A stretch of 64,000 nucleotides of DNA, from contig NZ_JAAEDH010000008.1 in assembly GCF_018128965.1 (NCBI RefSeq), forward strand, positions 1 through 64,000, read 5' to 3'. Position 1 is the first letter of the stretch, and each line of letters opens with the position of its first letter. The position numbers were made by a program, and so were the translations under genes. This document shows, piece by piece, positions 8,128 through 43,426 of the stretch. Origin of the DNA: Plastoroseomonas arctica. GTDB taxonomy: Bacteria > Pseudomonadota > Alphaproteobacteria > Acetobacterales > Acetobacteraceae. The notes below the pieces were generated by a model. It saw nothing but the letters and a program-made list of their open reading frames with translations. It was not told the origin of the DNA and ran no database searches.

Positions 8128-9092
8128 GGCGCCGGCGCCGCGGCGGTGCTGGTGGGTGCGGGCAGGTCGTTGTCGCGCGGGATCTCGAGGCCGCGCACCG
8201 GCGTCGCGGCCGCCCTGCCGTCCCGCCGCTCGGGCATGCCGCCGGCATTGCTCACCACGCGCTGCACGCCGCCCGCCGCCTCCTGTGCGGCAGCGAAGGC
8301 CACATCGCCCCAGAACCGGTCCAGGCTGCCCGACGGGATCTCATTCAGCTGCAGCACGCGGCCCAGCTCCTCGCCGTCGCGGCGGGAGACAACCCACAGG
8401 ATCTCCACGCGCTGGACGCCCTGCGTGCCGCTCGGTGCCACGCTCACCAGCCCCTGGACGGCGAAGCTTGCCGCGGTGGCGCTGTCGGAGATCAGGAAGC
8501 CGGCCTGGGTGAGGAAATCGCTCATCCGCGCGGTCAGCGCCGAATTGCCGTCCCCCGGCGCGCCGCCCACCGGCACCAGTCGGATGCGCGGCGGCCCGCC
8601 GGCCGCGAGGGCCGCAGGATCGGTCGCCTTCCGCGCCGCCTCGGCGCGCAGGATCATGGTGGCGAGGTTGCGCGCGGCGACCCGCGTCGCATCGCGGCGC
8701 ATCTCGTCGGATTGCTCGGCCCAGGTGGCGCGCGTCATCGGCGGCACCTCGGCGCTGCCGAGCTCGCCGCCATCCGCGTCGCGCAGGGTGTAGCGGAGCA
8801 CCACGTCGCTGCCGCGCCGCGTCACGGCCAGGCCCACGCGCCAGTCGAGCGGCAATGGCTCGGCCGCCACCGCCGGCACTTCCGCCACGCGCAAGGCATC
8901 GGCCATGGTCTCGGCGAAGCGGTCGGCGCCGATGGTGTCGAGCATCAGCGCATCGGAGCGCGGCACCGCGACGCGCACGCCCGGCGGTGCGGCGAGCTGC
9001 GCCGCGTTGCCCCCCGCGCGGCCGCGAAAGGGCTGCGGCAGGTCGCCGCAGGCGCCGAGCAGCACCAGCATCGCCACGAGCAGAACTCTCAT
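8124..9092 (-). CDS. Lipoprotein of unknown function
   Basis: The 322-residue protein starts with a lipoprotein signal and lipobox LLGAC (ATG at 9092). The mature region has alternating beta-rich segments (VRVAVPRSDAL, DVVLRYTLRDADG, RIRLVPVGGAPGDGN, QRVEILWVVSRRDG) and ends in a Pro/Ala-rich tail. It looks like an envelope scaffold rather than an enzyme. It is the last gene of the hldD-lgt-midA-pgeF run, and its ATG overlaps the TGA of a tiny hydrophobic ORF (TGATG). The PgeF-proximal position hints at an envelope role. Confidence 0.65.
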   Translation of the reverse strand: MRVLLVAMLVLLGACGDLPQPFRGRAGGNAAQLAAPPGVRVAVPRSDALMLDTIGADRFAETMADALRVAEVPAVAAEPLPLDWRVGLAVTRRGSDVVLRYTLRDADGGELGSAEVPPMTRATWAEQSDEMRRDATRVAARNLATMILRAEAARKATDPAALAAGGPPRIRLVPVGGAPGDGNSALTARMSDFLTQAGFLISDSATAASFAVQGLVSVAPSGTQGVQRVEILWVVSRRDGEELGRVLQLNEIPSGSLDRFWGDVAFAAAQEAAGGVQRVVSNAGGMPERRDGRAAATPVRGLEIPRDNDLPAPTSTAAAPAP

Positions 9093-9160: not shown

Positions 9161-9919
9161 TCATCCCAACCCCGCGATCGCGGAGATCTGGTGCCCGATC
9201 GCGCCGCCGCCAGCCAGCGTCCGCCGGCGATGGGAGAAGAACAGCGCCTCCTCGGCCAGGGTATCATGCGCCACGATCCGCACGTTGACGCCGCATGCCG
9301 CAAGCCGCGCCGCGCAATAGCCCGCGAGGTCGAATTGCCACCGCCCCGCCCGAACGCCATCGGCGAAGAACCGCGCATCGTCGGCATCGCGCGCCAGCAC
9401 CGCGTCACGCAGATCGGCCGCGACCTCATAGGAAGGCTGGCGGATGCAGGGGCCGACCACGGCCATGATGCGCCCCGGTTCAGCACCAAGCCCGACCATC
9501 GCCGCCACCGTCGCCTCCAGCACGCCATCCACCGCGCCGCGCCAGCCGGCATGTGCGGCCGCAACCACGCCCGCCGCGGAATCGGCGAACAGCACAGGCC
9601 CGCAATCCGCGGTCACCACGCCCAGCGCCACCGCCGGCAGCCGGGTCGCCAATGCATCCGCCTCCGGCGGCGTGTCCCAGGGCGCCTCCAGCACCGCGCA
9701 GCGCACCCCATGCACCTGGCGCACGCCGAACAGCGCCCCCGGCGCCACGCCCAGCGAGGCCGCCACGCGGGCGCGATTTTCGGCTACACGCGACGGATCA
9801 TCCGCACCGCTCGTCGAGCAATTCAGGCTCGCATAGCCACCCTCGGACACCCCGCCCTGCCGGGTGAAGAACCCATGCGGCGCGCCCAAATCCTCATCAG
9901 CGATGCGTGGCAGCGTCAT
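9161..9919 (-). CDS. pgeF: PgeF peptidoglycan editing factor (YfiH family)
   Basis: The 252-residue protein carries the metal and catalytic residues of the YfiH/PgeF fold (formerly annotated as polyphenol oxidase or laccase): QVHGV (His), TADCGPV (Cys) and AAHAGWRG (His). It also has the N-terminal FTRQGGVSEGGYASLN signature. PgeF removes mis-incorporated amino acids from peptidoglycan precursors in the cytoplasm. Its ATG overlaps the midA stop (ATGA), and the lgt-midA-pgeF order is a known alphaproteobacterial arrangement. The + strand of this gene shows moderate C bias, the outer edge of the skew zone around the first repeat. Confidence 0.9.
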   Translation of the reverse strand: MTLPRIADEDLGAPHGFFTRQGGVSEGGYASLNCSTSGADDPSRVAENRARVAASLGVAPGALFGVRQVHGVRCAVLEAPWDTPPEADALATRLPAVALGVVTADCGPVLFADSAAGVVAAAHAGWRGAVDGVLEATVAAMVGLGAEPGRIMAVVGPCIRQPSYEVAADLRDAVLARDADDARFFADGVRAGRWQFDLAGYCAARLAACGVNVRIVAHDTLAEEALFFSHRRRTLAGGGAIGHQISAIAGLG

Positions 9920-10878
9920 GCGTCAAACCCCGGCGGTGTCGGCAGCGCGGCATCGCACAGCGCCAGGGCCTTGAACAGCCGCCCCATTGCCTCCGGCGCC
10001 AGCAGCCTCTGCGCCGCCGCCAGCTGCCGCCCCGCCCCCGCCGGGTCCGCCCGCGCCAGCATCGCCGCCCGGCTCGCCAGCCCCAACCGCTGCAAGAACA
10101 CGCCCTGCGGCAAGGGCCCATGCGCCGCGGCACCCACGCCGCGCGCCGCCTCCGCCAAGGCCGCGAAATCCACGTGCGCCGTCACATCCGCATCCCCCGG
10201 CGCCACCAGAGGGTCCACCGCCTCCCCTCCCCGCATCGCCTGCAAACTCTCCCCCACCCCGCTCTCCGCCGGCCCGTAATCCAGCATCAGGGCCACGCAC
10301 CCGCCCCGCCGCATCAACGCCCGCACCACGTCAGCACCCGCTTCCCCCACCTCCCGCACAGCACCCTCCGGGGCGTCCCCCAACGCCACCTCAGAGCCAC
10401 GCTCCACAAACACCCCGTCCGCCACAAACCGCTCCACCCACCCCGCCCCGCGCCGCACGAACTGCCGCACCGGCAATGCATCGAAAAACTCGTTTGCCAA
10501 TACCACCGCCGGCCCCGCCGGCAGCCCCGCCACCCCATCACGCCAGGTCACATCACCCCCCAGCCGCGCCGCCTGCTCCGCCCGCAACCTCGCGGACGCC
10601 TCCACCAGATGCACCCGCGCCGCCCGAGCGAAATCCGGCGCCACCTGCGCCACCGCTCGCCGCGCGTCACTCATGAGCGTCCCCCGCCCCGGCCCCAACT
10701 CCGCCCACACCAGCGGATCCGGACGACCCATCCCCTCCCAAACCACCGCACTCCAGACTCCCAGGCATTCGCCAAACGCCTGGCTGATCTCCGGCGCCGT
10801 CACGAAATCCCCATACGGATCCTGCCGCGCATAGTAGGCAGCCACCGCCCGAGCCATGAACGCGTCCAACCGCTCCAT
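9916..10878 (-). CDS. MidA-family class I SAM methyltransferase (NDUFAF7-like)
   Basis: The 320-residue protein matches the MidA/NDUFAF7 family: N-terminal YYARQDPYGDFVTAPEISQAFGE, SAM loop ELGPGRGTLM and NEFFDALPVRQF. The eukaryotic relative dimethylates an arginine of a complex I subunit; the bacterial target is not established. Starting at the ATG at 10878 puts the start 3 bases from the repeat element, and no Shine-Dalgarno is visible there. Third positions on the coding strand are extraordinarily G-rich (C-rich on the + strand), unlike most other minus-strand genes in the window. Confidence 0.85.
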   Translation of the reverse strand: MERLDAFMARAVAAYYARQDPYGDFVTAPEISQAFGECLGVWSAVVWEGMGRPDPLVWAELGPGRGTLMSDARRAVAQVAPDFARAARVHLVEASARLRAEQAARLGGDVTWRDGVAGLPAGPAVVLANEFFDALPVRQFVRRGAGWVERFVADGVFVERGSEVALGDAPEGAVREVGEAGADVVRALMRRGGCVALMLDYGPAESGVGESLQAMRGGEAVDPLVAPGDADVTAHVDFAALAEAARGVGAAAHGPLPQGVFLQRLGLASRAAMLARADPAGAGRQLAAAQRLLAPEAMGRLFKALALCDAALPTPPGFDA

Positions 10879-11185
10879 GGTCAGGAGAAAGCAAGGCCAG
10901 GGGCGCTGCCCCTGGACCCCGCGAGGATCGTGTCGATCCTCGACCTCCCCTTGTTGGTTCTTGAATTTCGGAGGGGTGCGCTTGTCGAAGGGGCCGGGTT
11001 GGGGAGGGGGCGCGTCGTGGCCCCCCCCGAGAAGCACGCATTCCGTGCGCCCCCTCCCCAACCCGGCACGCCTCCAGCGAGGCTCAAACCCCTCCAAAAC
11101 CCAGGACCACGAAGGGGGGTCCAGGGGCCACAGGCTCCTGGCGGGGGTCGAGGGGGCGGAGCCCCCCGCCTTGCTTCCTCCCTGA
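10879..11185 (+). repeat. Palindromic intergenic element, copy 1 of 3
   Basis: The whole 307-bp gap between lgt and midA is one element. In order: an 8-bp hairpin CCAGGGGC-gct-GCCCCTGG (10897-10915), a 9-bp hairpin (10922-10942, loop TGT), a TTGTTGGTTCTTG box (10951-10963), a central perfect 21-bp inverted repeat (10993-11013 with 11047-11067) around a 33-base unconserved loop, a related but diverged second arm, and a GGGGGC-gga-GCCCCC hairpin (11152-11166). The outer ends are imperfect inverted repeats (AAGCAAGG and CCTTGCTT) with pyrimidine tracts facing outward. It begins right after the lgt stop. No transposase is present. Confidence 0.85.
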
Positions 11186-11980
11186 TCATGCCACCGGTCG
11201 GGCGCGTGCCATGAGCCAGGCGCCGGCCGCGAGCATCGGCAGGGAGAGCAGTTGGCCCATCGTGGCGCCGGCGAAGAGGAAGCCGAGGTGGGCGTCGGGC
11301 TGGCGGAAGAATTCGCCGATGATGCGAGCGCAGCCGTAGCCGAAGAGGAAGGCGCCGGCGATGAAGCCGGGGCGGGCTCGGATGGATGGGCGGGACATGA
11401 GGAGCATCAGGAGCGCGAAGAGTGCAAGGCCTTCCATGCCCGTCTGGTAGAGCTGGGAGGGGTGTCGCGGGTCGGGCCCTGCGCCGGGGAAGACCATGGC
11501 CCAGGGCACGTCGGGCGCGACGCGGCCCCAGAGCTCGCCGTTGATGAAGTTGGCGATGCGGCCGAAGAAGATGCCGATCGGCACGACGGCGACGACGCGG
11601 TCGCCAAAGGCGAGGAGCGGCAGCTTGTTGATGCGGCAGAAGATCCAGGTGGCGATGATGACGCCGAGCATGCCGCCGTGGAAGGCCATGCCGCCCTGCC
11701 AGACGGCGAAGGCTTCGAGCGGGTTCTCCAGGTAGTAGCCGGGCCGGTAGAACAATACGTAGCCCAGGCGCCCGCCGAGGATGATGCCGAGCGTGACCCA
11801 GGTGACGAAGTCGTCGATCTGTTCGGTTGTGGAGACGACGGGAGTGAGGCGCACTAGGTATCGTGCCAGGCGCCAGCCGAGCACGATGCCGGCGATGTAG
11901 GCGAGCGCGTACCAGCGGATGGCGAGCGGCCCGATTTCGACCAGCACCGGGTCGATGACCGGGAAGGGGATGACGAACAT
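11186..11980 (-). CDS. lgt: Prolipoprotein diacylglyceryl transferase Lgt
   Basis: The 264-residue, seven-helix inner-membrane enzyme transfers diacylglyceryl from phosphatidylglycerol to the lipobox cysteine of prolipoproteins. Hallmarks are the N-terminal PVLVEIGPLAIRWYALAYI block, the catalytic HGGMLGV segment and the signature GRIANFINGELWGR. It lies 15 bases downstream of hldD on the same strand and upstream of midA-pgeF, with the repeat inserted after its stop. Several lipoproteins in this window would be its substrates. The + strand is G-rich here, opposite in skew to midA although both genes read the same way. Confidence 0.95.
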   Translation of the reverse strand: MFVIPFPVIDPVLVEIGPLAIRWYALAYIAGIVLGWRLARYLVRLTPVVSTTEQIDDFVTWVTLGIILGGRLGYVLFYRPGYYLENPLEAFAVWQGGMAFHGGMLGVIIATWIFCRINKLPLLAFGDRVVAVVPIGIFFGRIANFINGELWGRVAPDVPWAMVFPGAGPDPRHPSQLYQTGMEGLALFALLMLLMSRPSIRARPGFIAGAFLFGYGCARIIGEFFRQPDAHLGFLFAGATMGQLLSLPMLAAGAWLMARARPVA

Positions 11981-11995
11981 CGGCGTATGGGCCTC

Positions 11996-12988
11996 TCAGC
12001 GATGCGGGTCGCCGCTCGCGAGATGGTCCCGCACGTAGTGTGCGACGCCGTCTTCCAGCGGGATGGTGGCGGCGTCGTAGCCGACGGCGCGCAGGCGATC
12101 GAGCTTCGCCTCCGTGAAGTATTGGTATTTGCCCTGGAGGTCTTCGGGCATCGGGATGTAGCGGATATCGGGTGCCTGGCCGAGCGCGGCGTAGATGGCC
12201 GTGGCGAGGTCGGCGAAGCTGCGCGCGATGCCGGAGCCCACGTTGAACAGGCCCGAGACGCGCGGGTGGTCGGCGAGCCAGAGGCAGACATTCACGACGT
12301 CGTCGACATGGACGAAGTCGCGCTGCTGCCCGCCATCGGCGATGCCGGGGCGGTCGGAGGCGAACAGTGTCGCAGCCTCGCCCTTGGCGATCTGCGCGTA
12401 TTTGTGTGCGACGACGCTCTGCATGCGGCCCTTGTGGTACTCGTTCGGGCCGTAGACGTTGAAGAAGCGCAGCCCGGCCCATTGCGGCGGCGCAGGCATG
12501 CCGCGGCCGAGCATCTGCGCCACGCGCCGGTCGAAGGCGAGCTTGGACCAGCCATAGAGGTTGAGCGGCCGCAGCACGGACAGCGCTGCGGGGGTGGCGT
12601 CATCGTCGAACCCCAGAGCGCCGTCGCCGTAGACGGCTGCGGAGGAGGCGTAGATGAACGGCACGCCCTTCTTCGCGCACCAGGCCCAGAGCATCAGCGG
12701 AAGGGTCAAATTCGAGGCGGCCACCCAATCGCCATCGGTCACCGTGGTGTCGCTCACCGCGCCCATGTGGAACACCGCCTCGATCGGGCGGCCGCGGTCG
12801 AGGAATTGTTCGAGATCATCGGGCGGGAGGATGCCGGCGATGGTGTGTTTGGCGAGGTTGCGCCACTTCTCGGCGCCGGGCGTCCCCTTGCGCAGGCGGT
12901 CCACCACCATCACCTCGCCGCCACCCGCGGCCAGTGCCGCCGTGAGGTTGGAGCCGATGAAACCGGCGCCGCCCGTGACCAGATACAT
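11996..12988 (-). CDS. hldD: ADP-L-glycero-D-manno-heptose 6-epimerase HldD
   Basis: The 330-residue protein is an extended SDR with the NAD(P) loop GGAGFIGSN (residues 6-14), the YxxxK pair in LYGWSKLAFD, and the HldD-specific FFNVYGPNEYHKGRMQSVV block. It epimerises ADP-heptose at C6 in the cytoplasm for LPS inner-core synthesis. It heads the lgt operon. The ATG at 12988 directly precedes the Rossmann strand as in the family. Together with kdsB it shows a heptose/Kdo-containing LPS core. Confidence 0.92.
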   Translation of the reverse strand: MYLVTGGAGFIGSNLTAALAAGGGEVMVVDRLRKGTPGAEKWRNLAKHTIAGILPPDDLEQFLDRGRPIEAVFHMGAVSDTTVTDGDWVAASNLTLPLMLWAWCAKKGVPFIYASSAAVYGDGALGFDDDATPAALSVLRPLNLYGWSKLAFDRRVAQMLGRGMPAPPQWAGLRFFNVYGPNEYHKGRMQSVVAHKYAQIAKGEAATLFASDRPGIADGGQQRDFVHVDDVVNVCLWLADHPRVSGLFNVGSGIARSFADLATAIYAALGQAPDIRYIPMPEDLQGKYQYFTEAKLDRLRAVGYDAATIPLEDGVAHYVRDHLASGDPHR

Positions 12989-13600: not shown

Positions 13601-14104
13601 ATGTCCGCCTCACTCAGCGTCCGCAGCACCCGGGCGCAAAATCCCCTCGACGTGGTCGAGCAGATCGTCATCGCCAATGATTGGGCGTTCGACCGCCGCT
13701 CGGATGGCGAGATCGCCGCCGAGGCGCCCGGCAAATGGTGCGACTATGGGCTGCATTTCGCCTGGTCCTCCGAGATCAGCGCCATGTCCTTCACCTGCGC
13801 CTTCGACCTCAAGGTGCCGGCCGAGCGCCGCGAGAAGCTGTTCGAGCTTCTGAGCCTCGCCAACGACAAGCTCTGGATCGGGCATTTCGGTATCGACGTG
13901 GATGAGGGCATGCCGGTGTTCCGCCACGCGGTGTTGCTGCGCGGCACGCCCGGCGCCTCGGCCGAATCGCTCGAGGACATGGTCGACATCGCCATCACCG
14001 AATGTGAGCGCTTCTACCCGGCCTTCCAGTTCGTGCTCTGGGGCGGCAAGTCGCCGGCCGAGGCGCTGCAATGCGCCATGCTGGAATGCGTCGGAGAAGC
14101 CTGA
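13601..14104 (+). CDS. YbjN domain-containing protein (type III secretion chaperone-like fold)
   Basis: The ATG at 13601 sits 4 bases after AAGGAGGT, so longer versions of the frame (up to 13478) are unlikely. The 167-residue protein has the YbjN signature: an N-terminal DVVEQIVIANDW helix, an antiparallel sheet with LHFAWSSEISAMSFTCAFDLKV, the ELLSLANDKLWIGHFGID segment and a C-terminal helical part with FQFVLWGGKSPAEAL. YbjN proteins are cytoplasmic and linked to stress phenotypes in Escherichia coli; the molecular function is not established. It appears to be transcribed alone. Confidence 0.85.
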   Translation: MSASLSVRSTRAQNPLDVVEQIVIANDWAFDRRSDGEIAAEAPGKWCDYGLHFAWSSEISAMSFTCAFDLKVPAERREKLFELLSLANDKLWIGHFGIDVDEGMPVFRHAVLLRGTPGASAESLEDMVDIAITECERFYPAFQFVLWGGKSPAEALQCAMLECVGEA

Positions 14105-14166
14105 CTTGCCGCTGACTGGCACAAGACTGGCATAGCCCCGCGGCCAGAACCCGCCGGGAGGCCCCC

Positions 14167-15009
14167 ATGTCCCTCACCCTATCCCGCCGCGCCCTCCTCG
14201 GCGCCGGCGTCCTGACACTTGCCGCCCCACGCATCGCCCGCGCCCAGGCCGTGACCCTCGCCGCGCTGCGCGCCTCGGGTAAACTCCGCATCGGCATCGA
14301 GGCCACCTACCCCCCCTTCACCATGCGCGAATCCGGCGTCATCACCGGCCACGACATCGAACTCGGCACCATCATGTGCCGCAGCCTCGGCATCACCCCC
14401 GAATACGTCGACGTCGTCTGGTCCGGCGTCATCCCCGCACTCTACGCCGGCCGCTTCGACATGATCATGTCCGGCATGAGCTACACCCGCGCCCGCATGG
14501 AGCGCGTCAGCTTCTCCATCCCCTACGCCGAAGCCGGCCAATCCCTCCTCATCCGCAACCGCGACACCAACACCATCCGCGCCATCGAGGACATGTCCGG
14601 CAAGGTGCTCGGGATAAAACTCGGCAGCCCCGGCGAAACCCTCCACCCCCGCCTGGCCGAGCGCATCACCGCCGCCCGCGGCCGCGGCTTCGCAGACGTA
14701 AAGATCTACGACGACCACCCCGCCGCCTACCTGGCCCTCAACCAAGGCACCGTCGACGGCGTGCTCAACACGCTCCCCACGCTGGCCTACGTCATCCGAT
14801 CCCAACCGACACGCTTCGCCGTCATCCGCGGCATCGGCGCCGACAACTACGCGGGCTTCGCCTGCCGCAAGGACGACACGGAGATCCACGCCTGGATGGA
14901 CGAACAGCTGCGCACGCTGCGCGCCAACGGAACGCTGCGCGAACTGCAACTCAAATACTTCGGCCTCGAGTTCAACCTGCCGGAGACCATCCCAGAGCCG
15001 GTGGCGTGA
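14167..15009 (+). CDS. Polar amino-acid ABC transporter, periplasmic binding protein
   Basis: The 280-residue protein begins with a Tat-like signal (SRRALLGAG, cleavage near ARAQA) and has the PBPb fold: GKLRIGIEATYPPFTM, the GHDIELG and WSGVIPALYAGRFDMIMSGMSYTRAR ligand blocks, and the IPYAEAGQSLLI hinge. It would capture a polar amino acid for the permease and ATPase downstream. Although a + gene, its third positions are almost all C, giving strong C excess on this strand. The stop is immediately followed by repeat copy 2. Confidence 0.88.
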   Translation: MSLTLSRRALLGAGVLTLAAPRIARAQAVTLAALRASGKLRIGIEATYPPFTMRESGVITGHDIELGTIMCRSLGITPEYVDVVWSGVIPALYAGRFDMIMSGMSYTRARMERVSFSIPYAEAGQSLLIRNRDTNTIRAIEDMSGKVLGIKLGSPGETLHPRLAERITAARGRGFADVKIYDDHPAAYLALNQGTVDGVLNTLPTLAYVIRSQPTRFAVIRGIGADNYAGFACRKDDTEIHAWMDEQLRTLRANGTLRELQLKYFGLEFNLPETIPEPVA

Positions 15010-15332
15010 TGGGAGCAAGCATGGGGGGCTTTGCCCCCCAAACCCCCTACCAGGATCGTGTCGATCCTGGACCTCCATCTGTTGGTTCTTGGGTTCGGGA
15101 GGGCAGTCTCGCCGGAGGCGAGCCGGGTTGGGGAGAGGGCGCGTCAAGGGAGCAACCGTGCCGCAGCGGCGACCCCGCGCCCTCTCCCCAACCCGGCGCT
15201 TCCAGCAAACTCACCCTTCCCCAATCCCAGGACCAGCACACGCAGGGGCCCGGGGATCGGAGCGATCCCCGGCGGGGGTTTGGGGGCAGCGCCCCCATGC
15301 TTTCTTCCTTCTCCGCCCCCCGGCACTAGGCG
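15010..15332 (+). repeat. Palindromic intergenic element, copy 2 of 3
   Basis: This copy starts right after the binding-protein stop and occupies the 323-bp gap before the permease. Components: hairpin GGGGGGC-ttt-GCCCCCC (15023-15039), 9-bp hairpin with TGT loop (15050-15070), CTGTTGGTTCTTGG box (15079-15092), central 22-bp perfect inverted repeat (15122-15143 with 15176-15197) with a 32-base loop, a CCCAGGACCAGCAC box, a 10-bp hairpin (15250-15272, loop GAG), and GGGGGC-agc-GCCCCC (15282-15296) followed by a TTTCTTCCTTCT tract. It has the same orientation as copy 1. The centre could fold into one long cruciform or RNA hairpin. Confidence 0.88.
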
Positions 15333-15986
15333 ATGGAATTCGACTGGTCGGTCGTGCGTTATGCGGCGCCGTTGTTGGCGGCGGGCATTGTGATGACCTT
15401 GAAGGTCAGTGTGGTGGCGTGTGTGTTGGGGTTGGTTTTGGGGCTGGCGGCGGGGTTGGCGTCGTTGTCGTCCAGCCGGGTGCTGCGGTTCCTGGTGCGG
15501 GCCTATGTGGATTTCATTCGCGGCACGCCGCTGTTGATCCAGATTTTTCTGGTGTTCTTTGCATTGCCTGTTGTGGGGGTTCGCCTGCCCGAGTTTTGGG
15601 CAGGCGTGGCGGCTTTGGCGATCAACTCGGGGGCCTACATCGCGGAGATCACGCGCGGGGCCGTGGGCGGGGTGGAGCGCGGGCAGACCGAGGCGGCGCT
15701 ATCGATCGGGATGACGCAGCGTGGGGTGCTGTGGTGGGTGTTGTTGCCGCAGGCGTGGCGCCCGATGATCCCGGCGCTGACGAATGACTTGATCACGCTG
15801 ACGAAGAACTCGTCCCTGCTCTCGGCGATCTCGGTTTATGAGCTGACGCGGGCGGGGCAGGCGGTGATCTCGACGCATTTTGCGCCGTTCGAGATCTATC
15901 TGCTGCTGGCGCTCTACTATTATCTGCTGATCACGGCGCTGTCCTTCGCGTCGCGGCGGATCGAGCGGGCGCTGCCGACATGGTGA
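15333..15986 (+). CDS. Polar amino-acid ABC transporter permease (HisM/GlnP family)
   Basis: The 217-residue protein has about five membrane helices and the EAA cytoplasmic loop that contacts the ATPase ([26 protein letters not shown]). The [17 protein letters not shown] block is typical of polar amino-acid permeases, which usually work as homodimers or pairs. It overlaps the ATPase gene by 7 bases. Third positions are G/T-rich (GTG, TTG, GGG), the reverse of the binding-protein gene across the repeat. The ribosome site (TAGG) is weak. Confidence 0.9.
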
Positions 15987-16735
15987 GCGACGAGCTGCTG
16001 GTCGCCACGCACATCAGCAAGTCCTTTGGCGAGAAGCTGGTGCTGGACCGTGTCTCGCTGACGGTGCGGCAGGGCGAAACGGTGACGATCATCGGCGCCT
16101 CGGGGTCGGGCAAGACGACATTCCTGCGCTGCCTCAACCGGCTGGAGACGCCCGATGCCGGCAGCATACGGCTGGGCGAGGAGGTGATCGGCGGACCGCC
16201 CGCGACGGAGGCGAATCTCGCGCGCCAGCGGAGGCTGTTCGGTTTCGTGTTCCAGCGTTTCAACCTGTTCCCGCATTTGACGGCGCTGCAGAACGTCGCG
16301 CTCGGCCCGCGCCGGGTGCTCGGCCTGCCGCGCGCAGCGGCGGAGGCGCGAGCGGCGCGCGACCTCGACCGCGTGCAGCTCTCCGAACATGCGCACAAGC
16401 GGCCGAGCCAGTTGTCCGGGGGGCAGCAGCAGCGCGTCGCCATCGCCCGCGCGCTGAGCATGGAGCCGCGCATCATCTTGTTCGACGAGCCGACCAGCGC
16501 GCTCGATCCCGAGCTAGTGCAGGAGGTGCTCGACACCATGCGCGCGCTGGCGGCGGATGGCATGACGATGGTGGTGGTGACGCACGAGATGCGCTTTGCG
16601 CGCCATGTCGCGGACCGCGTGGTGTTCATGGCCGACGGCCGCATCGCGGAGGAGGGCACGCCGGCCGCGCTGTTCGACACCCCGCGCGACCCGCGCCTGC
16701 AGCGTTTCCTCCGCCACCTCGAACCCGCCGTCTGA
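15980..16735 (+). CDS. Polar amino-acid ABC transporter ATPase (GlnQ/HisP family)
   Basis: The 251-residue cytoplasmic ATPase shows Walker [10 protein letters not shown], the Q-loop in [18 protein letters not shown], signature [15 protein letters not shown], Walker [15 protein letters not shown] and the H-loop [10 protein letters not shown]. It powers the permease just upstream, whose last codons it overlaps. The downstream amidohydrolase starts 13 bases after its stop, suggesting that the imported compound and the hydrolase may belong to one pathway (inference). Confidence 0.93.
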
Positions 16736-26612: not shown

Positions 26613-27008
26613 CTAGCTGCGCAGATCGTCCGGTACGTTGCCGCCATTCTCCGCAAGCTTCGCCATGACCTGCTCGTGCAGCCAGATGTTCATGCGCGCC
26701 GAGTCGGAGACGTCGCCGGCATAGTGCAGCTCGCGGGCCAGCGCCTGGCGCGCCTGCAGGCTGCTGTCGATGCCGACCAGCTTCATCAGGTCCACGATGG
26801 AGGTCTGCCACTGCAACTCCTGACCATGCGCTGCGGCGAGGCTGGTGAGCAGCGCGTTCACGTCGAAGGGGTTCATCGCGGGCGCCTGGCCGGCGGCGAT
26901 CTCGGGCTCGGCGGGGGCGGAGAGAACGGCGGAATCGGGGTGCGGGGTCGGCGCGGTGACCGGGCCGCGGCCGAACACGCGCGACAGGATGGAACCGAAG
27001 ATGCTCAT
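26613..27008 (-). CDS. DUF3597 domain protein, copy 2
   Basis: The 131-residue protein starts MSIFGSILSRVFG, has an Ala/Pro linker (about 15-45) and a compact helical DUF3597 domain (about 46-130) with WQTSIVDLMKLVGIDSSLQARQALARELHY and the MNIWLHEQVMAKLAENGG end. No signal peptide. The family has a solved helical structure but no known function. It is a tandem duplicate of the next gene, about 60% identical in the domain by eye. Confidence 0.82.
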   Translation of the reverse strand: MSIFGSILSRVFGRGPVTAPTPHPDSAVLSAPAEPEIAAGQAPAMNPFDVNALLTSLAAAHGQELQWQTSIVDLMKLVGIDSSLQARQALARELHYAGDVSDSARMNIWLHEQVMAKLAENGGNVPDDLRS

Positions 27009-27130: not shown

Positions 27131-27496
27131 TCAGCCGTGCAGCTCGGCCGGCACGCGGCCGCCATTCTCGGCGAGCTTCTGCATGACCGCCTTGTGCAGC
27201 CAGACGTTCATGCTCGCGGAATCTTCGAGGTCGCCGGCGAAGTGCAGCTCCTTGGCGAGCTCCTGGCGCGCGTGGAGGCTGCTGTCGATGTCGAGCAGCT
27301 TCAGTAGGTCGACGATCGAGGTCTCCCAGCGCAGCGTCTCGCCATGGTTCGCGGCCAACCCGGCGAGCATGGCGTGGACGTCGACGGCCTCCATGGTGGA
27401 AGCCGGCGCGGCCAGGTCGGCGGCGGGCGTGCCGGGGGTGGCGGCGGCCGGGTGGGTGCCGAAGATGCGCGAGACGATGGAACCGAAAATGCTCAT
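27131..27496 (-). CDS. DUF3597 domain protein, copy 1
   Basis: The 121-residue protein shares the MSIFGSI(V)SRIFG start, a short variable linker, and the same domain core (WETSIVDLLKLLDIDSSLHARQELAKELHF, MNVWLHKAVMQKLAENGG). The linker differs most between the two copies. The 122-bp space between them contains no second promoter that I can identify, so they are probably expressed together. Function unknown; the residue pattern suggests a soluble cytoplasmic helical bundle. Confidence 0.82.
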   Translation of the reverse strand: MSIFGSIVSRIFGTHPAAATPGTPAADLAAPASTMEAVDVHAMLAGLAANHGETLRWETSIVDLLKLLDIDSSLHARQELAKELHFAGDLEDSASMNVWLHKAVMQKLAENGGRVPAELHG

Positions 27497-39945: not shown

Positions 39946-41613
39946 CTAGGCGGCGGGCAAGCGGATCACGAAGCGCGCGCCGATGATCCGCCCCATGGCA
40001 TCGCGCCGATTTTCGGCGCTGATCCGCCCGCGCAAACCCTCCACGATCTGCCGGCTGATCGACAGGCCCAACCCCGAATGCTGCCCGAACCGCTCGCCGG
40101 TCGGGCGCTCCGAATAGAAGCGCTCGAAGATGCTTTCCAGCTTGTGGTCGGGGATGCCGGGGCCCTCATCCTCCACGGTGATCTCCACCACCGCGCCAGT
40201 CGCGCGTGCGCCCACCCGCACCCGGCCATTCTCCGGGCTGAAGGACAGAGCGTTGCCGAGCAGATTTCTGAACACCTGCACCAGCCGCCCCTCCACGCCG
40301 CGCACGATCAACCCCTCCGGTGGCGCGTCCAGCAGCACCTGCGGGTCGGAATCATCATTGCGCGTCGCGTTGTGCAGTTCGGCCAGCGTGGCCAGGATCG
40401 GTGCCACGTCCACCGGCGAGGTCACCGTGCGCGACAGCTCCGCATCGACGCGGCTCGAATCCGAGATGTCGCCGATCAGCCGGTCCATCCGCACCGCATC
40501 ATCCGAGATGATCGCCAGCAGCCGCTTCTGCTGCTCCGGATTCTCGATCCGCCGCAGCGTCTCGATCGCGCTCCGCACGCTGGTCAGCGGGTTGCGCAGC
40601 TCATGCGCCACATCCGCGGCGAAACGCTCATTCGCATCGATCCGCCCCCACAGCGCGCTTGCGGAATTCTGCAGGTCACGCGCGAGCACGCCAATCTCGT
40701 CATCGCGCGCCATCAGCGGCTCCGGCACAGTGTTCGCGCGCCCCTCGCCCTCGCGCATGCGGACCGCCGCGCGCGCCAGCTCCAGCATCGGCGTCGCGAT
40801 CGTGCGTGCGAGAAAGAACGACAACGCCACCGTCAAGATCAGCGCCGTCCCGAACAGCGTCAGCACCGAGGCGCGGATTTCTTGCAACCGCTGGTCCACC
40901 TCCCGCGCCTCGCGCGTCAGCAGCACGATCGCCACACTCTGCCCCGCCCGCCGCGCCGGCTCCGCCACCGACACCAGCAACCGTCCATCGCCGGTCCGCC
41001 GGATATACGGCGTCACCCCGCCCTCCAGCGCGATGCGCAACTCCTCCCGCCGCTCCGGCCCCAGATCCGGCTGCCAATCGAACGAAGGCGGGTCCGGATT
41101 GGGATCAACCACACTCGGCTGCCCGCGAAACCCGCGCGGCAAAAACTGCAACAGCTGGTCGTAGATCCCCGTGACCGTCGCATTCACCACGCCCCGGGGC
41201 TCCGGCGGTGGCAAAGGCTCCGTCACGATCGCGCCGCCCGCATTCTCCCGAACTCGGCTATCGGCCACCACCAGCCCAGTGATGTCGAATATCTTCGCCT
41301 GCGTGTTCGGCGACGGCTCCACCAACCGCCGCAACAACGGCCGCGCCATCTCCGGCACCAGCACCGCGCGGTCATTCTCGATCCGCACCGCCGCCTCTCC
41401 AATGCCCGCGGCATAAATGCGCGCCTGAGTCCGCAACCCCTCGATCTCGGCCGCCATCAGCCCATCCTGATATTGATCAAGATAAAGCAACGACGCCGCC
41501 AACAACGCCGGCGGCAACGCATTGAGCAAAAGGATCCGCCGCAACAACCGCGAAAACCGCGGCGGCCGCCGTGCCGCAGCGGGGGTCCGGACGAGGAGCG
41601 GCGCTTCAGGCAT
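39946..41613 (-). CDS. chvG: Sensor histidine kinase ChvG
   Basis: The 555-residue kinase has two membrane helices (about 26-46 and 250-270) around a periplasmic sensor domain, a HAMP domain, the H-box FAADVAHELRNPLTSV (His337), an N-box QVFRNLLGNALSFSPE and the G-boxes DEGPGIPD and GLGLSISRQIVE. It pairs with the response regulator encoded upstream. ChvG/ExoS senses acid or envelope stress in alphaproteobacteria. The ATG at 41613 lies next to repeat copy 3 and has no visible SD; the + strand is strongly C-rich across its 5' half. Confidence 0.88.
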   Translation of the reverse strand: MPEAPLLVRTPAAARRPPRFSRLLRRILLLNALPPALLAASLLYLDQYQDGLMAAEIEGLRTQARIYAAGIGEAAVRIENDRAVLVPEMARPLLRRLVEPSPNTQAKIFDITGLVVADSRVRENAGGAIVTEPLPPPEPRGVVNATVTGIYDQLLQFLPRGFRGQPSVVDPNPDPPSFDWQPDLGPERREELRIALEGGVTPYIRRTGDGRLLVSVAEPARRAGQSVAIVLLTREAREVDQRLQEIRASVLTLFGTALILTVALSFFLARTIATPMLELARAAVRMREGEGRANTVPEPLMARDDEIGVLARDLQNSASALWGRIDANERFAADVAHELRNPLTSVRSAIETLRRIENPEQQKRLLAIISDDAVRMDRLIGDISDSSRVDAELSRTVTSPVDVAPILATLAELHNATRNDDSDPQVLLDAPPEGLIVRGVEGRLVQVFRNLLGNALSFSPENGRVRVGARATGAVVEITVEDEGPGIPDHKLESIFERFYSERPTGERFGQHSGLGLSISRQIVEGLRGRISAENRRDAMGRIIGARFVIRLPAA

Positions 41614-41922
41614 GGGAAGACAGGCGGGGGGCTCCGCCCCCTCGACCCCCGCCGGGGATCGCGCCAATCCCCGGGCCCCTGCATGTGCTGGTCTTGGGTT
41701 TGGGAAGGAGTTGATCCTCGCCGGAAGCGAGCCGGATTGGGGAGGGGGCGCATGGAGCATCCTCGATCAAGGTTGCGTCCTCGACGCGCCCCCTCCCCAA
41801 TCCGGCTCTCTCAGCAAGAACACCCCTCCCAATCCAAGAACCAACAGATGGACGTCCAGGATCGACACGATCCTGGCGGGGTCCAGGGGCAGAGCCCCTG
41901 GCCTTCCTTCCCACCCCGAGGC
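41614..41922 (-). repeat. Palindromic intergenic element, copy 3 of 3 (inverted)
   Basis: This copy fills the 309-bp gap between chvI and chvG and is inverted relative to copies 1 and 2. Components on the + strand: GGGGGC-tcc-GCCCCC (41627-41641), 8-bp stem CCGGGGAT/ATCCCCGG (41652-41674), a central 21-bp perfect inverted repeat (41731-41751 with 41786-41806), CCAAGAACCAACAG (41834-41847, the complement of the box in copy 2), 9-bp hairpin with ACA loop (41856-41876), and CCAGGGGC-aga-GCCCCTGG (41883-41901) followed by CCTTCCTTCCC. The 34-base central loop is not conserved between copies. Confidence 0.88.
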
Positions 41923-42624
41923 TCATGCTTCCTTGTACCGGTACCCGATGCCGTAAAGCGTTTCGATCTGCGAGAAGTCGTCGTCCACGACTCGGAATTT
42001 CTTGCGGATGCGTTTGACGTGGCTGTCGATGGTGCGGTCGTCCACGTAGATGTTTTCACCGTAGGCGCCGTCGATCAGTTGGTCGCGGTTTTTCACCATG
42101 CCTGGGCGAACGGCGAGGGCTTTGACCAGCAGGAACTCGGTGACGGTGAGTTGGACCTGCTGGCCTTTCCAGAGGCAGGTGTGCTTGGTCTCGTCCAGCA
42201 CCAGATCGCCGCGGGAGATGATTCCGCCAGGCGGCGCGCCGCTGCCTTCGGCCCGCGCCCCTTCGTTGCGGCGGAGCAGGGCGCGGATGCGTTCGAGGAG
42301 CAGGCGCTGGGAGAAGGGTTTGGTGATGTAGTCGTCGGCGCCGAGGCGAAGGCCCATGAGTTCGTCCACTTCCTCGTCTTTCGAGGTGAGGAAGATGACC
42401 GGCATGTTGGAGCGTTGGCGCAGGCGCTGGAGCAGTTCCATCCCGTCCATGCGCGGCATCTTGATGTCGAGCACGGCGAGGTCGACGGGCTTGGCCATGA
42501 GGCCCTGGAGGGCGCTTTCGCCGTCGGTGTAGGTGCGGATGGTGTAGCCTTCCTGTTCCAGCGTCATGGAGACGCTGGTGAGGATGTTGCGGTCGTCATC
42601 CACGAGGGCGATGGTCTGGGGCAT
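41923..42624 (-). CDS. chvI: Response regulator ChvI (OmpR family)
   Basis: The 233-residue regulator has a receiver domain with acidic pocket DDD (9-11), phospho-acceptor Asp53 (VLDIKMP), Thr/Ser and Lys switch residues (LTS, TKPF) and a C-terminal winged helix (about 130-233; [40 protein letters not shown]). In rhizobia and relatives ChvI controls envelope genes and affects pckA, which is nearby here. The + strand is G-rich, the opposite of chvG across the repeat. Confidence 0.9.
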
Positions 42625-42679
42625 GGTCTGCAGTGCTCCGGTCAGGGGCCGATTGTGACGCAACGGGAGTGTCAGCGAT

Positions 42680-43426
42680 ATGGCAATGGACGTCGGTCGG
42701 GAGGAGGCGCTGGCCGGCGCCATTCGTGAATCACGCCATTTGATCCGCGGCGCCACGGCGGCGAGTCTTGCGACCAGCGCGGAGGGGCAGCCATTCGTGA
42801 GCCTGGTGACGCCGGCGACGGCGCCGGATCTGTCGCCGCTGCTGTGGATCTCGACGCTGTCGGAGCATACGCGCCACCTGGCCGCGGAGCCGCGGTGCTC
42901 GTTGATGGTGACGGGCGTCGCGGATGGTCCCAACCCACAGACCGCGCCGCGCATCACCCTGACCGGGTTGGCGGAGCCGGTGCCGGCGGCCGAGGTGGTC
43001 GCGCTGAAGGCGCGGTGGCTCGCGCGGCATCCCTACGCGGCGCTCTATGCCGAGTTCGCGGATTTTTCGCTCTGGCGCATTCGGCCGCAGGCGGCGCTCT
43101 ATGTCGGCGGCTTCGCGCGCGCCTTGCGGCTGCGGCTGACGGAGTTCGCGCCGGACCCGGTGGCGGTGGCCGCGATCGCGGAAGCCGAGCCCGGCATCCT
43201 GGCGCATATGAACGAGGACCACCCGGCGGCCTGCGCGAACATCGCCCGCGTGTTCTGCGGCGGGGAGGCGGGCGCGTGGCGGATGGTCGCCCTGGACGTG
43301 GATGGCTGCGATCTTACGGATGGTAACCGGACTGTGCGTTTTGCCTTTTCGGAAGCGGTTTCGGATGTCGACGACGTCCATACCGTGCTGGTGCTTGCCG
43401 CTCGTGAGGCGCGTCTTGCTCTCTAA
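42680..43426 (+). CDS. HugZ-type haem-utilisation/pyridoxamine-oxidase-fold protein
   Basis: The 248-residue protein has an N-terminal split-barrel flavin/haem-binding domain ([14 protein letters not shown]...[30 protein letters not shown]) and a C-terminal DUF2470 domain with [12 protein letters not shown] (about 170-248). HugZ relatives degrade haem oxidatively to release iron. Haem degradation here is inferred; a flavin reductase role is possible. It lies between chvI (divergent) and pckA (same strand). Confidence 0.75.

Follow-up and report, generated by a model that had tools for sequence, protein, structure and literature searches.

Three copies of a long palindromic element lie in the 64,000-nucleotide stretch of Plastoroseomonas arctica DNA analysed here (the window), flanked by the lgt and methyltransferase genes, by two ABC-transporter genes and by the genes for a response regulator and a histidine kinase, respectively (Table 1). 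The two ABC-transporter genes that flank copy 2 together span 14167–15986. The closest relatives of lgt in the named collections are from Roseomonas and other Acetobacteraceae, with 70–77% identity.

Table 1. Coordinates of element copies, central stems, flanking skew zones and neighbouring genes in the window
Feature	Position	Strand	Match	Remarks
Copy 1, left skew zone	9400..10888	-		Outward minus strand G/T-rich, plus strand C/A-rich
Putative SAM-dependent methyltransferase	9916..10878	-	Pfam PF02636, E 1.2e-48	Element lies between it and lgt
Element copy 1	10889..11176	.	nhmmer 217 bits	Between lgt and methyltransferase gene, both minus
Copy 1, central long stem and loop	10994..11066	.		Arms 10994-11013 and 11047-11066; exact patterns on opposite strands
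Copy 1, right skew zone	11177..12600	+		Takes in lgt; outward plus strand G-rich; 250-bp skews +0.23 to +0.08 over 1.5 kb
lgt, prolipoprotein diacylglyceryl transferase	11186..11980	-	Pfam PF01790, E 1.3e-78	Used for orthologue test
Copy 2, left skew zone	14000..15013	-		250-bp skews -0.15, -0.30, -0.25, -0.18, then ~0
ABC transporter substrate-binding protein	14167..15009	+	Pfam PF00497	Left of copy 2
Element copy 2	15014..15306	.	nhmmer 232 bits	Between ABC transporter substrate-binding protein and permease genes, both plus
Copy 2, central long stem and loop	15123..15196	.		Arms 15123-15142 and 15177-15196; exact patterns on opposite strands
Copy 2, right skew zone	15307..16300	+		250-bp skews +0.25, +0.25, +0.05, +0.08, then ~0
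ABC transporter permease	15333..15986	+	Pfam PF00528	Right of copy 2
Copy 3, left skew zone	40100..41616	-		250-bp skews -0.08 to -0.27 over 1.75 kb
Element copy 3	41617..41909	.	nhmmer 255 bits	Between response regulator and histidine kinase genes, both minus
Copy 3, central long stem and loop	41732..41805	.		Arms 41732-41751 and 41786-41805; exact patterns on opposite strands
Copy 3, right skew zone	41910..43400	+		250-bp skews +0.04 to +0.21 over 1.5 kb

The element is a nested, long interrupted palindrome of ~295 bp that could fold into a branched hairpin or cruciform. DNA folds of copy 1 (10885–11185) and copy 2 (15010–15310) reach −106.6 kcal/mol (z −9.2) and −109.7 kcal/mol (z −10.0), respectively. 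In an alignment of 53 copies, two-sided changes occur in 15 of the 17 pairs of the central stem and in 28 of the 48 pairs of the whole element, and 97.0% of cells are paired, compared with 88.8% in shuffles. In its length, strong folds and covarying pairs, the element resembles the long interrupted palindrome (246 bp) that SbcCD cleaves in Escherichia coli.

To count copies in the genome to which the window belongs (G000), we sampled 956 kb of its 4.44 Mb, window included, as 51 merged stretches picked around blast or pattern matches plus 11 control stretches. The sample contains 54 copies, 53 full and one interrupted; nhmmer matches below 100 bits were left out of the counts, and the interrupted copy (C2:382111-382689), both halves of which fall below 100 bits, was added by hand. 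According to a simple composition-based gene caller, a stop codon lies within 15 bp of an element edge at 51 of the 54 copies, and the flanking genes are convergent at 20 copies, co-directional at 33 and divergent at one. The site of copy 1 is also occupied in a congener (G001), where an element also adjoins the orthologue of the kinase gene beside copy 3. No Rfam family matches the window at gathering scores, no plasmid matches copy 1 at E 1e-5, and a pattern search of 150 family genomes finds a comparable copy number nowhere besides G000 and G001.

Each copy in the window separates a left flank with negative plus-strand GC skew from a right flank with positive GC skew. Specifically, the left and right 1-kb skews are −0.36 and +0.20 at copy 1, −0.22 and +0.17 at copy 2, and −0.21 and +0.14 at copy 3. 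To the left of copy 1, successive 250-bp skews are −0.35, −0.43, −0.45, −0.21, −0.19, −0.19 and −0.15, then ~0, and at all three copies the skew drops to ~0 by 1–2 kb. The sequence-only reading had described this reversal from seven hand counts in 60-base segments, all of which reproduce exactly: C32/G7 (10381–10440) against C15/G26 (11281–11340) at copy 1, C31/G9 (14521–14580) against C10/G31 (15421–15480) at copy 2, C28/G13 (41221–41280) against C15/G26 (42481–42540) at copy 3, and a balance of G and C at 9001–9060.

The switch is also present at other copies throughout the sampled genome, a check that had been proposed together with the sequence-only reading and that bears it out far more strongly than the hand counts could. 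In the position-averaged profile, the GC skew adjoining the element, past the first 100 bp, is ~−0.24 on the left and ~+0.21 on the right, and the T-A skew has the same sign, so that the strand running outward 5′ to 3′ is G- and T-rich on both sides of the element. The skew fades with distance, as had been claimed, and is gone by 1.5–2 kb, while GC content stays flat across the profile (0.675–0.707). The innermost 25–50 bp are not outward-skewed (−0.40 in the innermost 25 bp, −0.01 in the next 25 bp). The switch is positive at 52 of the 54 copies (mean 0.30, sd 0.13), compared with a mean of −0.004 (sd 0.067, maximum 0.185) at 3000 randomly chosen positions lying over 3.5 kb away from any copy, and it exceeds 0.19 at only one of 438 gene boundaries with no element within 3 kb. 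Furthermore, the 956 kb contain 56 positive switch peaks exceeding 0.20, of which 48 are no more than 400 bp from the centre of an element; of the 43 negative peaks, none is that close. The claim that the reversal is centred on every copy has to be narrowed, since two copies (C11:115964 and C6:138092) show essentially no skew on either side. The third-weakest skew belongs to a shorter copy that is without part of the loop (C6:129026). Six copies with a different core sequence show similar skew (.20 vs.17), which speaks against core sequence specificity, and the correlation of skew strength with folding energy is weak (rho −0.25, p 0.07), a suggestive trend.

The skew lies mainly at synonymous sites, regardless of coding direction. 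At fourfold sites, G rises from.44–.50 at 4–8 kb to about.70–.71 at 200–500 bp from the element, while C falls from.43–.49 to about.19–.24, and the shift is alike in outward-read and inward-read genes, in agreement with the earlier claim that the bias is not a coding-strand effect. Fourfold GC is.91–.94 at 200–500 bp compared with about.93 far away, and stays at.88–.94 at every distance, if anything slightly lower beside the element. G is favoured over C in 24 of 24 neighbour contexts, T over C in 22 of 24 and G over A in 21 of 24; heterogeneity among contexts is significant (Q 224, 23 df), and in five context-by-type cells T over C or G over A is not favoured. A k-mer scan finds CT depleted and TT and GTT enriched relative to base composition, part of which codon structure may cause, and no single dominant k-mer. 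The scan and the neighbour contexts speak against a Chi- or KOPS-type motif as the sole driver.

The fourfold strand skew is ~0.45–0.58 at 100–600 bp from elements, compared with a mean of |0.05| in 46 stretches far from elements. Because the distant skew is this weak, ordinary fork asymmetry cannot explain the switch and is rejected. The sign change, with G and T on the outgoing strand, resembles the GC-skew switch of a replication origin, and the sequence-only reading had likened each copy to a tiny bidirectional origin. Taken literally, this comparison is not supported: the mark occurs at dozens of copies and ends by about 2 kb instead of extending over a replichore, and the distant skew is about a tenth as strong. 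TTWTNCACA is the DnaA-box consensus, and strict matches to it number zero in the 64-kb window (0.32 expected by chance), the three copies included.

The skew depends on the element across genomes. In the congener, the same averaged skew surrounds 29 of its copies. The lgt gene is skewed in both genomes in which it lies beside the element (coding-strand fourfold (C−G)/(C+G) of 0.54 for the window lgt), compared with a mean fourfold skew of about −0.06 in 25 genomes without the element; these come from the lgt loci loaded for 30 of the 77 genomes with lgt, three of the 30 not being scored. Absence of the element was judged from exact inverted repeats in 500 bp (27 bp in G080, 0–13 bp elsewhere) and from the first 60 bases downstream, which at 19 of the 25 loci resemble, by eye, the start of the methyltransferase gene. 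We compared six genes that lie close to a congener copy but distant from every G000 copy: three have strong skew in the congener but not in G000, one has equal skew in the two genomes, and the other two show no skew in either. Orthologues without the element are thus mostly without skew, a few genes being contrary, and the orthologue check proposed with the earlier reading does not refute it.

Of the 25 G000 copies that can be placed in the fetched congener contigs, 23 are also present there, a share inflated by the choice of contigs carrying copies. Both unskewed copies are missing from the congener and are therefore probably young. A copy that the congener lacks is not always unskewed, since C31:12533 and C5:114565 are missing there and yet clearly skewed in G000; we read these two as losses in the congener. 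A shorter related family in G013 shows no skew at its 26 matches (mean.014, 9/26 positive), which amount to about 24 places, many partial, with one place counted twice and one adjacent pair. Look-alikes show no skew switch at the five places viewed in G112 and the two viewed in G145. The analysis thus shows the palindrome, its compensatory conservation, the symmetry of the skew and the link of the skew to the element across genomes.

We estimated fourfold-site substitution rates against the congener from orthologue pairs (best tblastn matches with at least 55% identity and at least 60 residues), expressing them as ratios of near (100–800 bp) to far rates on the outward strand, bootstrapped by gene. 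C>G is raised to 1.63 (1.38–1.89) and A>G to 1.81 (interval excluding 1), while G>C is lowered to 0.50 (0.44–0.55) and T>C to 0.47 (0.33–0.68). C>T (1.34, 0.96–1.93) and G>A (0.78, 0.55–1.53) move in the direction expected of a keto bias, with intervals that include 1. Within the keto class, the ratios are 1.62 (1.12–2.21) for T>G and 1.40 (0.97–1.89) for G>T; within the amino class, they are 1.36 (0.66–2.97) for C>A and 0.97 (0.47–2.09) for A>C; those for A>T and T>A are not estimable. The total rate is unchanged at 0.95 (0.83–1.18). Amino-to-keto changes are thus up and keto-to-amino changes down on the outward strand at a constant total rate, as expected of the proposed strand-polar keto conversion by mismatch repair. 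The ratios above 1 within the keto class, which a pure keto bias would leave at 1, count against it.

In rate fits that assume stationarity and reversibility and use the same pairs throughout, only the near/far ratios having been bootstrapped, an additive model with 12 parameters (lnL −4772.0) does worse than a keto bias with a single parameter (S=1.26, lnL −4750.2). Two models fit better than the one-parameter bias, namely a six-parameter one-strand model (lnL −4733.4) and a 13-parameter model in which mutation is added to a background reduced to 0.61 (lnL −4736.8). A single keto-over-amino fixation or conversion parameter (S about 1.26) accounts for most of the pattern. The pattern looks like fixation or conversion bias and not added mutation alone, because G>C and T>C proceed at about half the background rate and added mutations cannot lower rates.

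The strand-skew mark may reveal repeated local breaking or recopying of DNA at each copy. Our best explanation, drawn from sequence comparison and held with slightly less than even confidence, is recurrent two-sided repair or re-synthesis initiated by the palindrome, with a keto-over-amino bias on the outward strand. Each copy would act, over evolutionary time, as a recurrent start point for tracts running outward up to about 1.5–2 kb, within which outward-strand keto alleles (G/T) would beat amino alleles (C/A) in genes of any direction and in nearly all contexts. The trigger would be breakage or stalling at the extruded palindrome structure, and the bias would arise in recombination heteroduplex. 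In particular, a two-ended break would leave the broken copy with a 3′-ended inward strand, whose partner in the heteroduplex would be the donor's outward strand; a donor outward keto base would then create a keto/keto mismatch (G/G, T/T or G/T), and the reverse an amino/amino mismatch (C/C, A/A or A/C). MutS, which is encoded in the genome, recognises keto/keto mismatches well, and amino/amino mismatches to a lesser degree. Provided that correction goes to the donor base, outward G and T would gain over C and A in every change class. In the best model, the source of the bias is either such mismatch correction or the use of one strand as master copy. In a bolder reading, to which we give somewhat less than even odds, this natural palindrome family provides dozens of programmed, reused start sites for recombination or re-synthesis, each imprinting a strand-polar keto-over-amino conversion bias on 3–4 kb of adjacent genes.

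The inventory of repair genes bears on this explanation. AddA, a subunit of the end-processing helicase-nuclease AddAB (the alternative to RecBCD), is encoded: its alphaproteobacterial model scores above cut-off in G000, G002 and G013, with a shorter sub-cut-off match in the congener. SbcD (TIGR00619), the palindrome-cleaving nuclease subunit, has no match in G000 (99% complete), the congener (90%) or G013, gives two weak matches in G002, and is found in 13 of 14 control genomes. This search, which covered SbcD only, disfavours SbcCD as the cutter; the known route to a break is thus missing, which counts against our best explanation. Moreover, repair from a sister chromosome offers few mismatches, so that the explanation requires either very frequent events or exchange with other cells.

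An account without mismatch-repair bias, which we judge unlikely while taking it seriously, is repeated loss of the outward strand, by displacement or degradation, followed by its recopying on the inward strand as template through nick translation, break-induced synthesis or mini-origin-like synthesis; outward lesions would be erased and inward ones fixed, leaving a single-strand spectrum. Complementary near/far ratios should then sum to 2, and the medians of three pairs come near that (C>G with G>C, T>C with A>G, C>T with G>A), whereas two pairs sum higher with wide intervals (G>T with C>A, T>G with A>C). The corresponding six-parameter model outperforms the one-parameter keto bias, but its A>T term runs to its bound, and it requires a very asymmetric spectrum, with inward G>C about three times as common as inward C>G, unlike the pattern usually left by deamination. 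Alternatively, error-prone repair synthesis from the element, for example by an ImuABC/DnaE2 mutasome, could add mutations to the outward strand. The main change, C to G with GC content unchanged, fits the ImuB- and ImuC-dependent G:C to C:G transversions of Caulobacter described in the available part of one report (PMC3901139). However, G>C falls to half of background, and 12 free rates fit worse than one bias parameter unless the background is lowered as above, which makes simple addition very improbable. The repeated repair synthesis suggested by the sequence-only reading survives as a process close to the best-supported class, but not as simple added error-prone mutagenesis.

If natural selection favoured a keto-rich outward strand, or an oriented motif close to the element, it would formally give the observed fixation bias, and the k-mer departures from composition could reflect it in so far as codon structure does not cause them. 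We consider selection improbable, given the preference for G over C in every context, the lack of a dominant k-mer and the smooth average decay over 1.5–2 kb; to our knowledge, strand composition has no function. Divergent transcription or R-loops from the element would expose the outward non-template strand, and enrichment of the non-template strand in G+T is a known asymmetry of transcription. Nevertheless, a scan of copies 1 and 2 for sites of the sigma-70 type finds none in or near them, tandem and convergent neighbours show similar switches (0.325 and 0.372, compared with 0.285), and neither the C-to-G purine enrichment nor the lowered reverse rates fit deamination; we judge a transcriptional origin very improbable. 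The siting of the copies close behind stop codons, nearly always between convergent or co-directional genes, would suit insertion into already skewed places or a gene-end or codon-usage effect. Such readings are scarcely tenable: element-free gene boundaries of every orientation show no switch, element-free lgt orthologues average no skew, as do three of the six compared genes in the genome lacking the nearby copy, and the two unskewed copies are missing from the congener. These controls, together with the equal shift in both gene directions, disfavour coding-strand, gene-end and pre-existing-skew readings.

The palindrome-initiated repair that we prefer can be compared with known systems. GC-biased gene conversion (gBGC) is a local fixation bias without selection, with S about 1. 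The bias around the element is likewise local and of similar strength; unlike gBGC, it favours keto over amino bases on one strand, with no rise in local GC content. In the available part of the account of human meiotic hotspots by Hinch et al. (2023, PMC7615360), as here, a mirror-image base bias extends ~2 kb to each side of the break site, the central 100 bp show no asymmetry, and the changes fall on the C/A versus G/T axis with strand-asymmetric C>G. The polarity is apparently reversed, in that C and A change on the resected 3′-ended strand at human hotspots and on the outward strand here, and this apparent opposition to the C>N and A>N mutations of hotspots counts against our best explanation. 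Furthermore, in that account, the eukaryotic, SPO11/PRDM9-dependent hotspots add mutation, whereas around the element reverse changes are suppressed and the total rate stays the same. The element resembles REP/BIME, ERIC and other stem-loop families in being intergenic, situated behind genes, dispersed and modular, with compensatory stems. It differs in its ~295-bp length and long central stem from REPs, given as 20–40 bp in the available part of PMC3733652. In our literature search, no paper described a skew imprint flanking bacterial intergenic palindromic repeats.

If the preferred reading is correct, the chromosome has been opened and recopied at dozens of fixed sites often enough to rewrite synonymous sites in the genes nearby, including core genes such as lgt. 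The elements would be a bacterial counterpart of meiotic hotspots with a strand-asymmetric biased gene conversion of their own, one that acts on the keto/amino axis, alters strand composition and not GC content, and escapes tests based on GC alone. Base composition would then record where local recombination takes place, how far it reaches and how old it is; the skew profile would serve as a ruler for natural repair tract length (about 1–2 kb) and a rough clock of element age, and would allow the effect of mismatch recognition on genomes to be tested directly by comparison. Codon usage within 1–2 kb of elements should not be taken as selection for expression. The elements also bear on the tolerance of long palindromes in a lineage where SbcD was not found.

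In E. coli, a long interrupted palindrome engineered into lacZ likewise resides in a bacterial chromosome, and two of three studies from the Leach laboratory reportedly used the same 246-bp version. According to the available parts of these studies (PMC3315005, PMC4213011, PMC8386832), the 246-bp palindrome causes a chronic SbcCD-dependent double-strand break, in which a replication-linked break in one sister is repaired from the other and is well tolerated. The situation here differs in that dozens of palindromes are natural and SbcD was not found. In the same parts of these studies, repair intermediates accumulate within about 12 kb of Chi, no rise in mutagenesis is detectable and no imprint on base composition is mentioned, whereas the mark described here ends by about 2 kb. 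An 85-bp palindrome was there judged to be no cleavage target, in agreement with the unskewed shorter elements observed here.

The skew at the three window copies is real, and the bases counted there by hand in the sequence-only reading proved exact on recounting; its basis, however, is not the two genes spanned by the coordinates of that reading but a repeated element, a palindrome of about 295 bp (see table). The nearest relatives of its lgt place the genome of the window probably in the Acetobacteraceae. Searches of this 4.44-Mb genome (51 contigs) by blastn and by pattern located the element in many places, and an iterated profile seeded with the three window copies identified 53 full ones within the 956 kb of sequence fetched. 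With one interrupted copy added, 54 copies from these 956 kb of the 4.44 Mb were analysed; one of 11 control stretches also carried a copy. The single-strand folding of the element far exceeds that of 100 shuffles (z of −9.2 and −10.0 for two copies). When the 53 copies are aligned, both sides have changed in 28 of the 48 consensus pairs, and 97.0% of cells pair, versus 88.8% in shuffled alignments and at most 62.9% with partners slid, indicating that the arms of the element change together. Judged from the alignment, this covariation is compatible with folding of DNA or RNA alike. The element is modular, with variable side hairpins and a different central stem in six copies, and the extra hairpin found in seven copies suggests module shuffling. 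A strongly conserved motif in the left arm, to which a related sequence sits inverted in the opposite arm, is a possible protein binding site.

Positions of element copies and associated features (C, contig; L, locus; G000, genome of the window; G001, congener; G013, genome with a shorter related repeat family)
Feature	Position	Source	Description
Element copy 1	10889-11176	window	member of ~295-bp nested palindrome family
Element copy 2	15014-15306	window	member of ~295-bp nested palindrome family
Element copy 3	41617-41909	window	member of ~295-bp nested palindrome family
Copies with extra TTCGACGTATACGTCGAA-type module	C3:77125, C7:77824, C9:10779, C9:35218, C9:48702, C14:43598, C31:6030	G000	small hairpin (TTCGACGTATACGTCGAA or close) in one outer arm, 7 of 53 aligned copies
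Left-arm motif GTTGGTTC	15081-15090	window, and equivalent position in other copies	conservation of at least 90% in almost all columns, 53 copies
280-bp direct repeats	26615-26894 and 27133-27412	window	75% identical, 518 bp start to start, outside the element family
Element-free switches	C3 ~18,730; C9 ~14,150	G000	0.27 and 0.24, no element within 3 kb
Outer-arm-like hairpin	L232 ~2270-2330 (C300)	G001	short hairpin beside a still-skewed gene; full copy in G000
Replacement hairpin	C254:10400-10430 (L376)	G001	short hairpin between two convergent genes in place of the 290-bp element of C6:138092
Shorter nested-hairpin family	L262-L287	G013	26 matches at about 24 places

A stop codon lies within 15 bp of at least one element edge in 51 of the 54 copies, and the genes on either side converge at 20 copies, run in the same direction at 33 and diverge at one. 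Specifically, copy 1 parts lgt from a methyltransferase gene (Pfam); judged by eye, the start of this gene comes directly after lgt in 19 of the 25 family members that lack the element. Scans around copies 1 and 2 gave no sigma-70-like promoter, and the single terminator-like hairpin at the edge of each approximates the number in shuffles.

Averaged over the 54 copies, GC skew close to the element is about −0.24 on the left and about +0.21 on the right, and falls to zero by 1.5–2 kb; T-A skew matches it in sign, while GC content is flat. The right-minus-left difference in 1-kb skew has a mean of 0.30 and is positive in 52 of the 54 copies, so that the average switch for which the sequence-only reading had looked to other copies is present. 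Random positions (n = 3000) give a mean switch of −0.004 and a maximum of 0.185, and only one of 438 gene boundaries without an element within 3 kb, in any gene orientation, exceeds 0.19, versus mean switches of 0.325 (++, 16), 0.372 (−−, 16) and 0.285 (+−, 18) at boundaries with an element. A scan of the stretches gave 56 positive switches above 0.20 and 43 negative ones; 48 of the positive and none of the negative switches lie within 400 bp of an element centre. Of the remaining eight positive switches, one lies 437 bp from an element centre and the others do not exceed 0.27; the element-free switches on C3 and C9 could be fossils of lost copies. The first 25–50 bp beside the element are without outward G/T bias, and in the innermost 25 bp the outward strand (running 5′ to 3′ away from the element) is C-rich, with a skew of −0.40, opposite to the zone beyond. 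The 26 matches of the shorter family in G013 have no skew.

The skew is mainly synonymous and strand-polar. On the outward strand, fourfold G, far from the element about.44 in genes read outward and.50 in those read inward, reaches about.70–.71 at 200–500 bp, C falls from.49 or.43, respectively, to.19–.24, and GC at these sites is.91–.94 at the same distance. On the same strand, C gives way to T and A to G at two-fold sites; codon position 1 shifts slightly and position 2 hardly. G is favoured over C in 24 of 24 neighbour contexts, with log odds from 0.53 to 2.21 that differ significantly among contexts; the count is 22 of 24 for T over C and 21 of 24 for G over A.

The averaged profile recurs in the congener G001 (29 copies). 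For 25 G000 copies the neighbouring sequence could be placed in the fetched contigs of G001; 23 of these sites are occupied by an element there as well and two are not, a share inflated by the choice of G001 contigs for carrying copies. In lgt (30 loci, three unscored), fourfold (C−G)/(C+G) reaches 0.54 and 0.59 in the two element-bearing genomes, versus a range of −0.35 to +0.35 and a mean of about −0.06 in the 25 family members that lack the element; the comparison with element-free orthologues proposed by the sequence-only reading thus sets them apart. Six genes are near a copy in G001 and far from every copy in G000: three show strong skew in G001 and none in G000 (for example, C.14 and G.80 versus C.50 and G.41), two, at a median distance above 900 bp, are skewed in neither, and one in both. 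Five genes have the opposite placement, near a copy in G000 and far from one in G001: two of them are skewed in each genome, two only weakly in G001, and the fifth ends at a contig end. The hairpin at L232 looks like a collapsed element, and because G001 keeps an outer-arm-like hairpin at one of these sites, we infer that they are element losses with fossil skew. Two copies absent from G001, C6:138092 and C11:115964, have essentially no skew; the former, whose G001 site appears empty, is probably young, and at the site of the latter G001 has about 1.5 kb of other sequence. In all, of the four G000 copies known to have no counterpart in G001, two are skewed and the other two are not. The skew seems to build up after arrival of the element and to outlast its loss, an order that rests on few loci.

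Between G000 and G001, 219 orthologue-like gene pairs supplied 34,933 fourfold sites for comparison, and we fitted a reversible model to sites near the element (100–800 bp; 4647 sites, 45 genes) and far from it (>3 kb; 15,978 sites, 108 genes). The near/far rate ratios (bootstrap ranges) are 1.63 (1.38–1.89) for C>G, 0.50 (0.44–0.55) for G>C, 0.47 (0.33–0.68) for T>C, 1.81 (1.25–3.68) for A>G, 1.34 (0.96–1.93) for C>T, 0.78 (0.55–1.53) for G>A, 1.62 (1.12–2.21) for T>G and 1.40 (0.97–1.89) for G>T, with a total of 0.95 (0.83–1.18); A>T and T>A were inestimable. Because G>C is lowered near the element, added mutations alone cannot account for the pattern. At 3009 sites 150–600 bp from the element, log-likelihood is −5495.3 with no change and −4724.6 when saturated. 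A single parameter for fixation of keto (G/T) over amino (C/A) bases (S = 1.26) gives −4750.2, or −4747.4 with a free rate (1.12), and a symmetric 1+b, 1−b form (b = 0.55) gives −4754.5, versus −4772.0 for an additive model with 12 free rates. The fit of the single keto parameter is surpassed by a six-parameter one-strand model (−4733.4) and by an additive model whose background is reduced to 0.61 (−4736.8), at the cost of five and twelve extra parameters, respectively. Together, the rate ratios and likelihoods point to a directional bias, of the conversion type or of the single-strand-inheritance type, as the best description of the force near the element.

We favour a scheme in which the 3′-ended inward strand of a broken copy would form heteroduplex with the outward donor strand. 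Mismatch correction prefers keto/keto over amino/amino mismatches, and such a preference acting here would predict, from one parameter, which base is favoured in each keto-amino class. MutS and AddA are encoded. The symmetric two-sided mark and the skewless shorter G013 family resemble the SbcCD palindrome system of Escherichia coli, but sbcD has no match in G000, G001 or G013, which leaves a different nuclease, a cruciform resolvase or the collapse of forks as the trigger. In E. coli, the chronic-break studies reportedly made the break at the same 246-bp palindrome that SbcCD attacks. That interrupted palindrome is an SbcCD target and an 85-bp one was judged no target (PMC3315005); when one of the two sisters is broken once in each replication cycle, recombination mends the break, growth is little affected and no effect on mutagenesis is detectable (PMC4213011, PMC8386832). 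Strand-biased mismatch resolution of 60–80% after a break, reported for single-strand annealing in mouse cells, where mismatch type matters little (PMC9001825), lends the heteroduplex scheme only partial support. To our knowledge, a strand-polar keto bias spreading 1–2 kb from dozens of fixed sites matches no known kind, and among the literature matches listed on palindromes, recombination hotspots, intergenic repeats and biased conversion in bacteria, with subscription journals largely outside, no report describes such an imprint. As a palindromic intergenic repeat, the element itself belongs to a known kind, but it differs from each known family considered in at least one tested defining feature (REP size, SbcD, DnaA boxes, GC rise). 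At human meiotic hotspots, mutations are asymmetric in mirror image across 2 kb, except in the central 100 bp, which shows no asymmetry; C and A there appear to change on the resected strand (PMC7615360), a polarity opposite to that at the element, which makes deamination of 3′ tails an unlikely cause of the skew.
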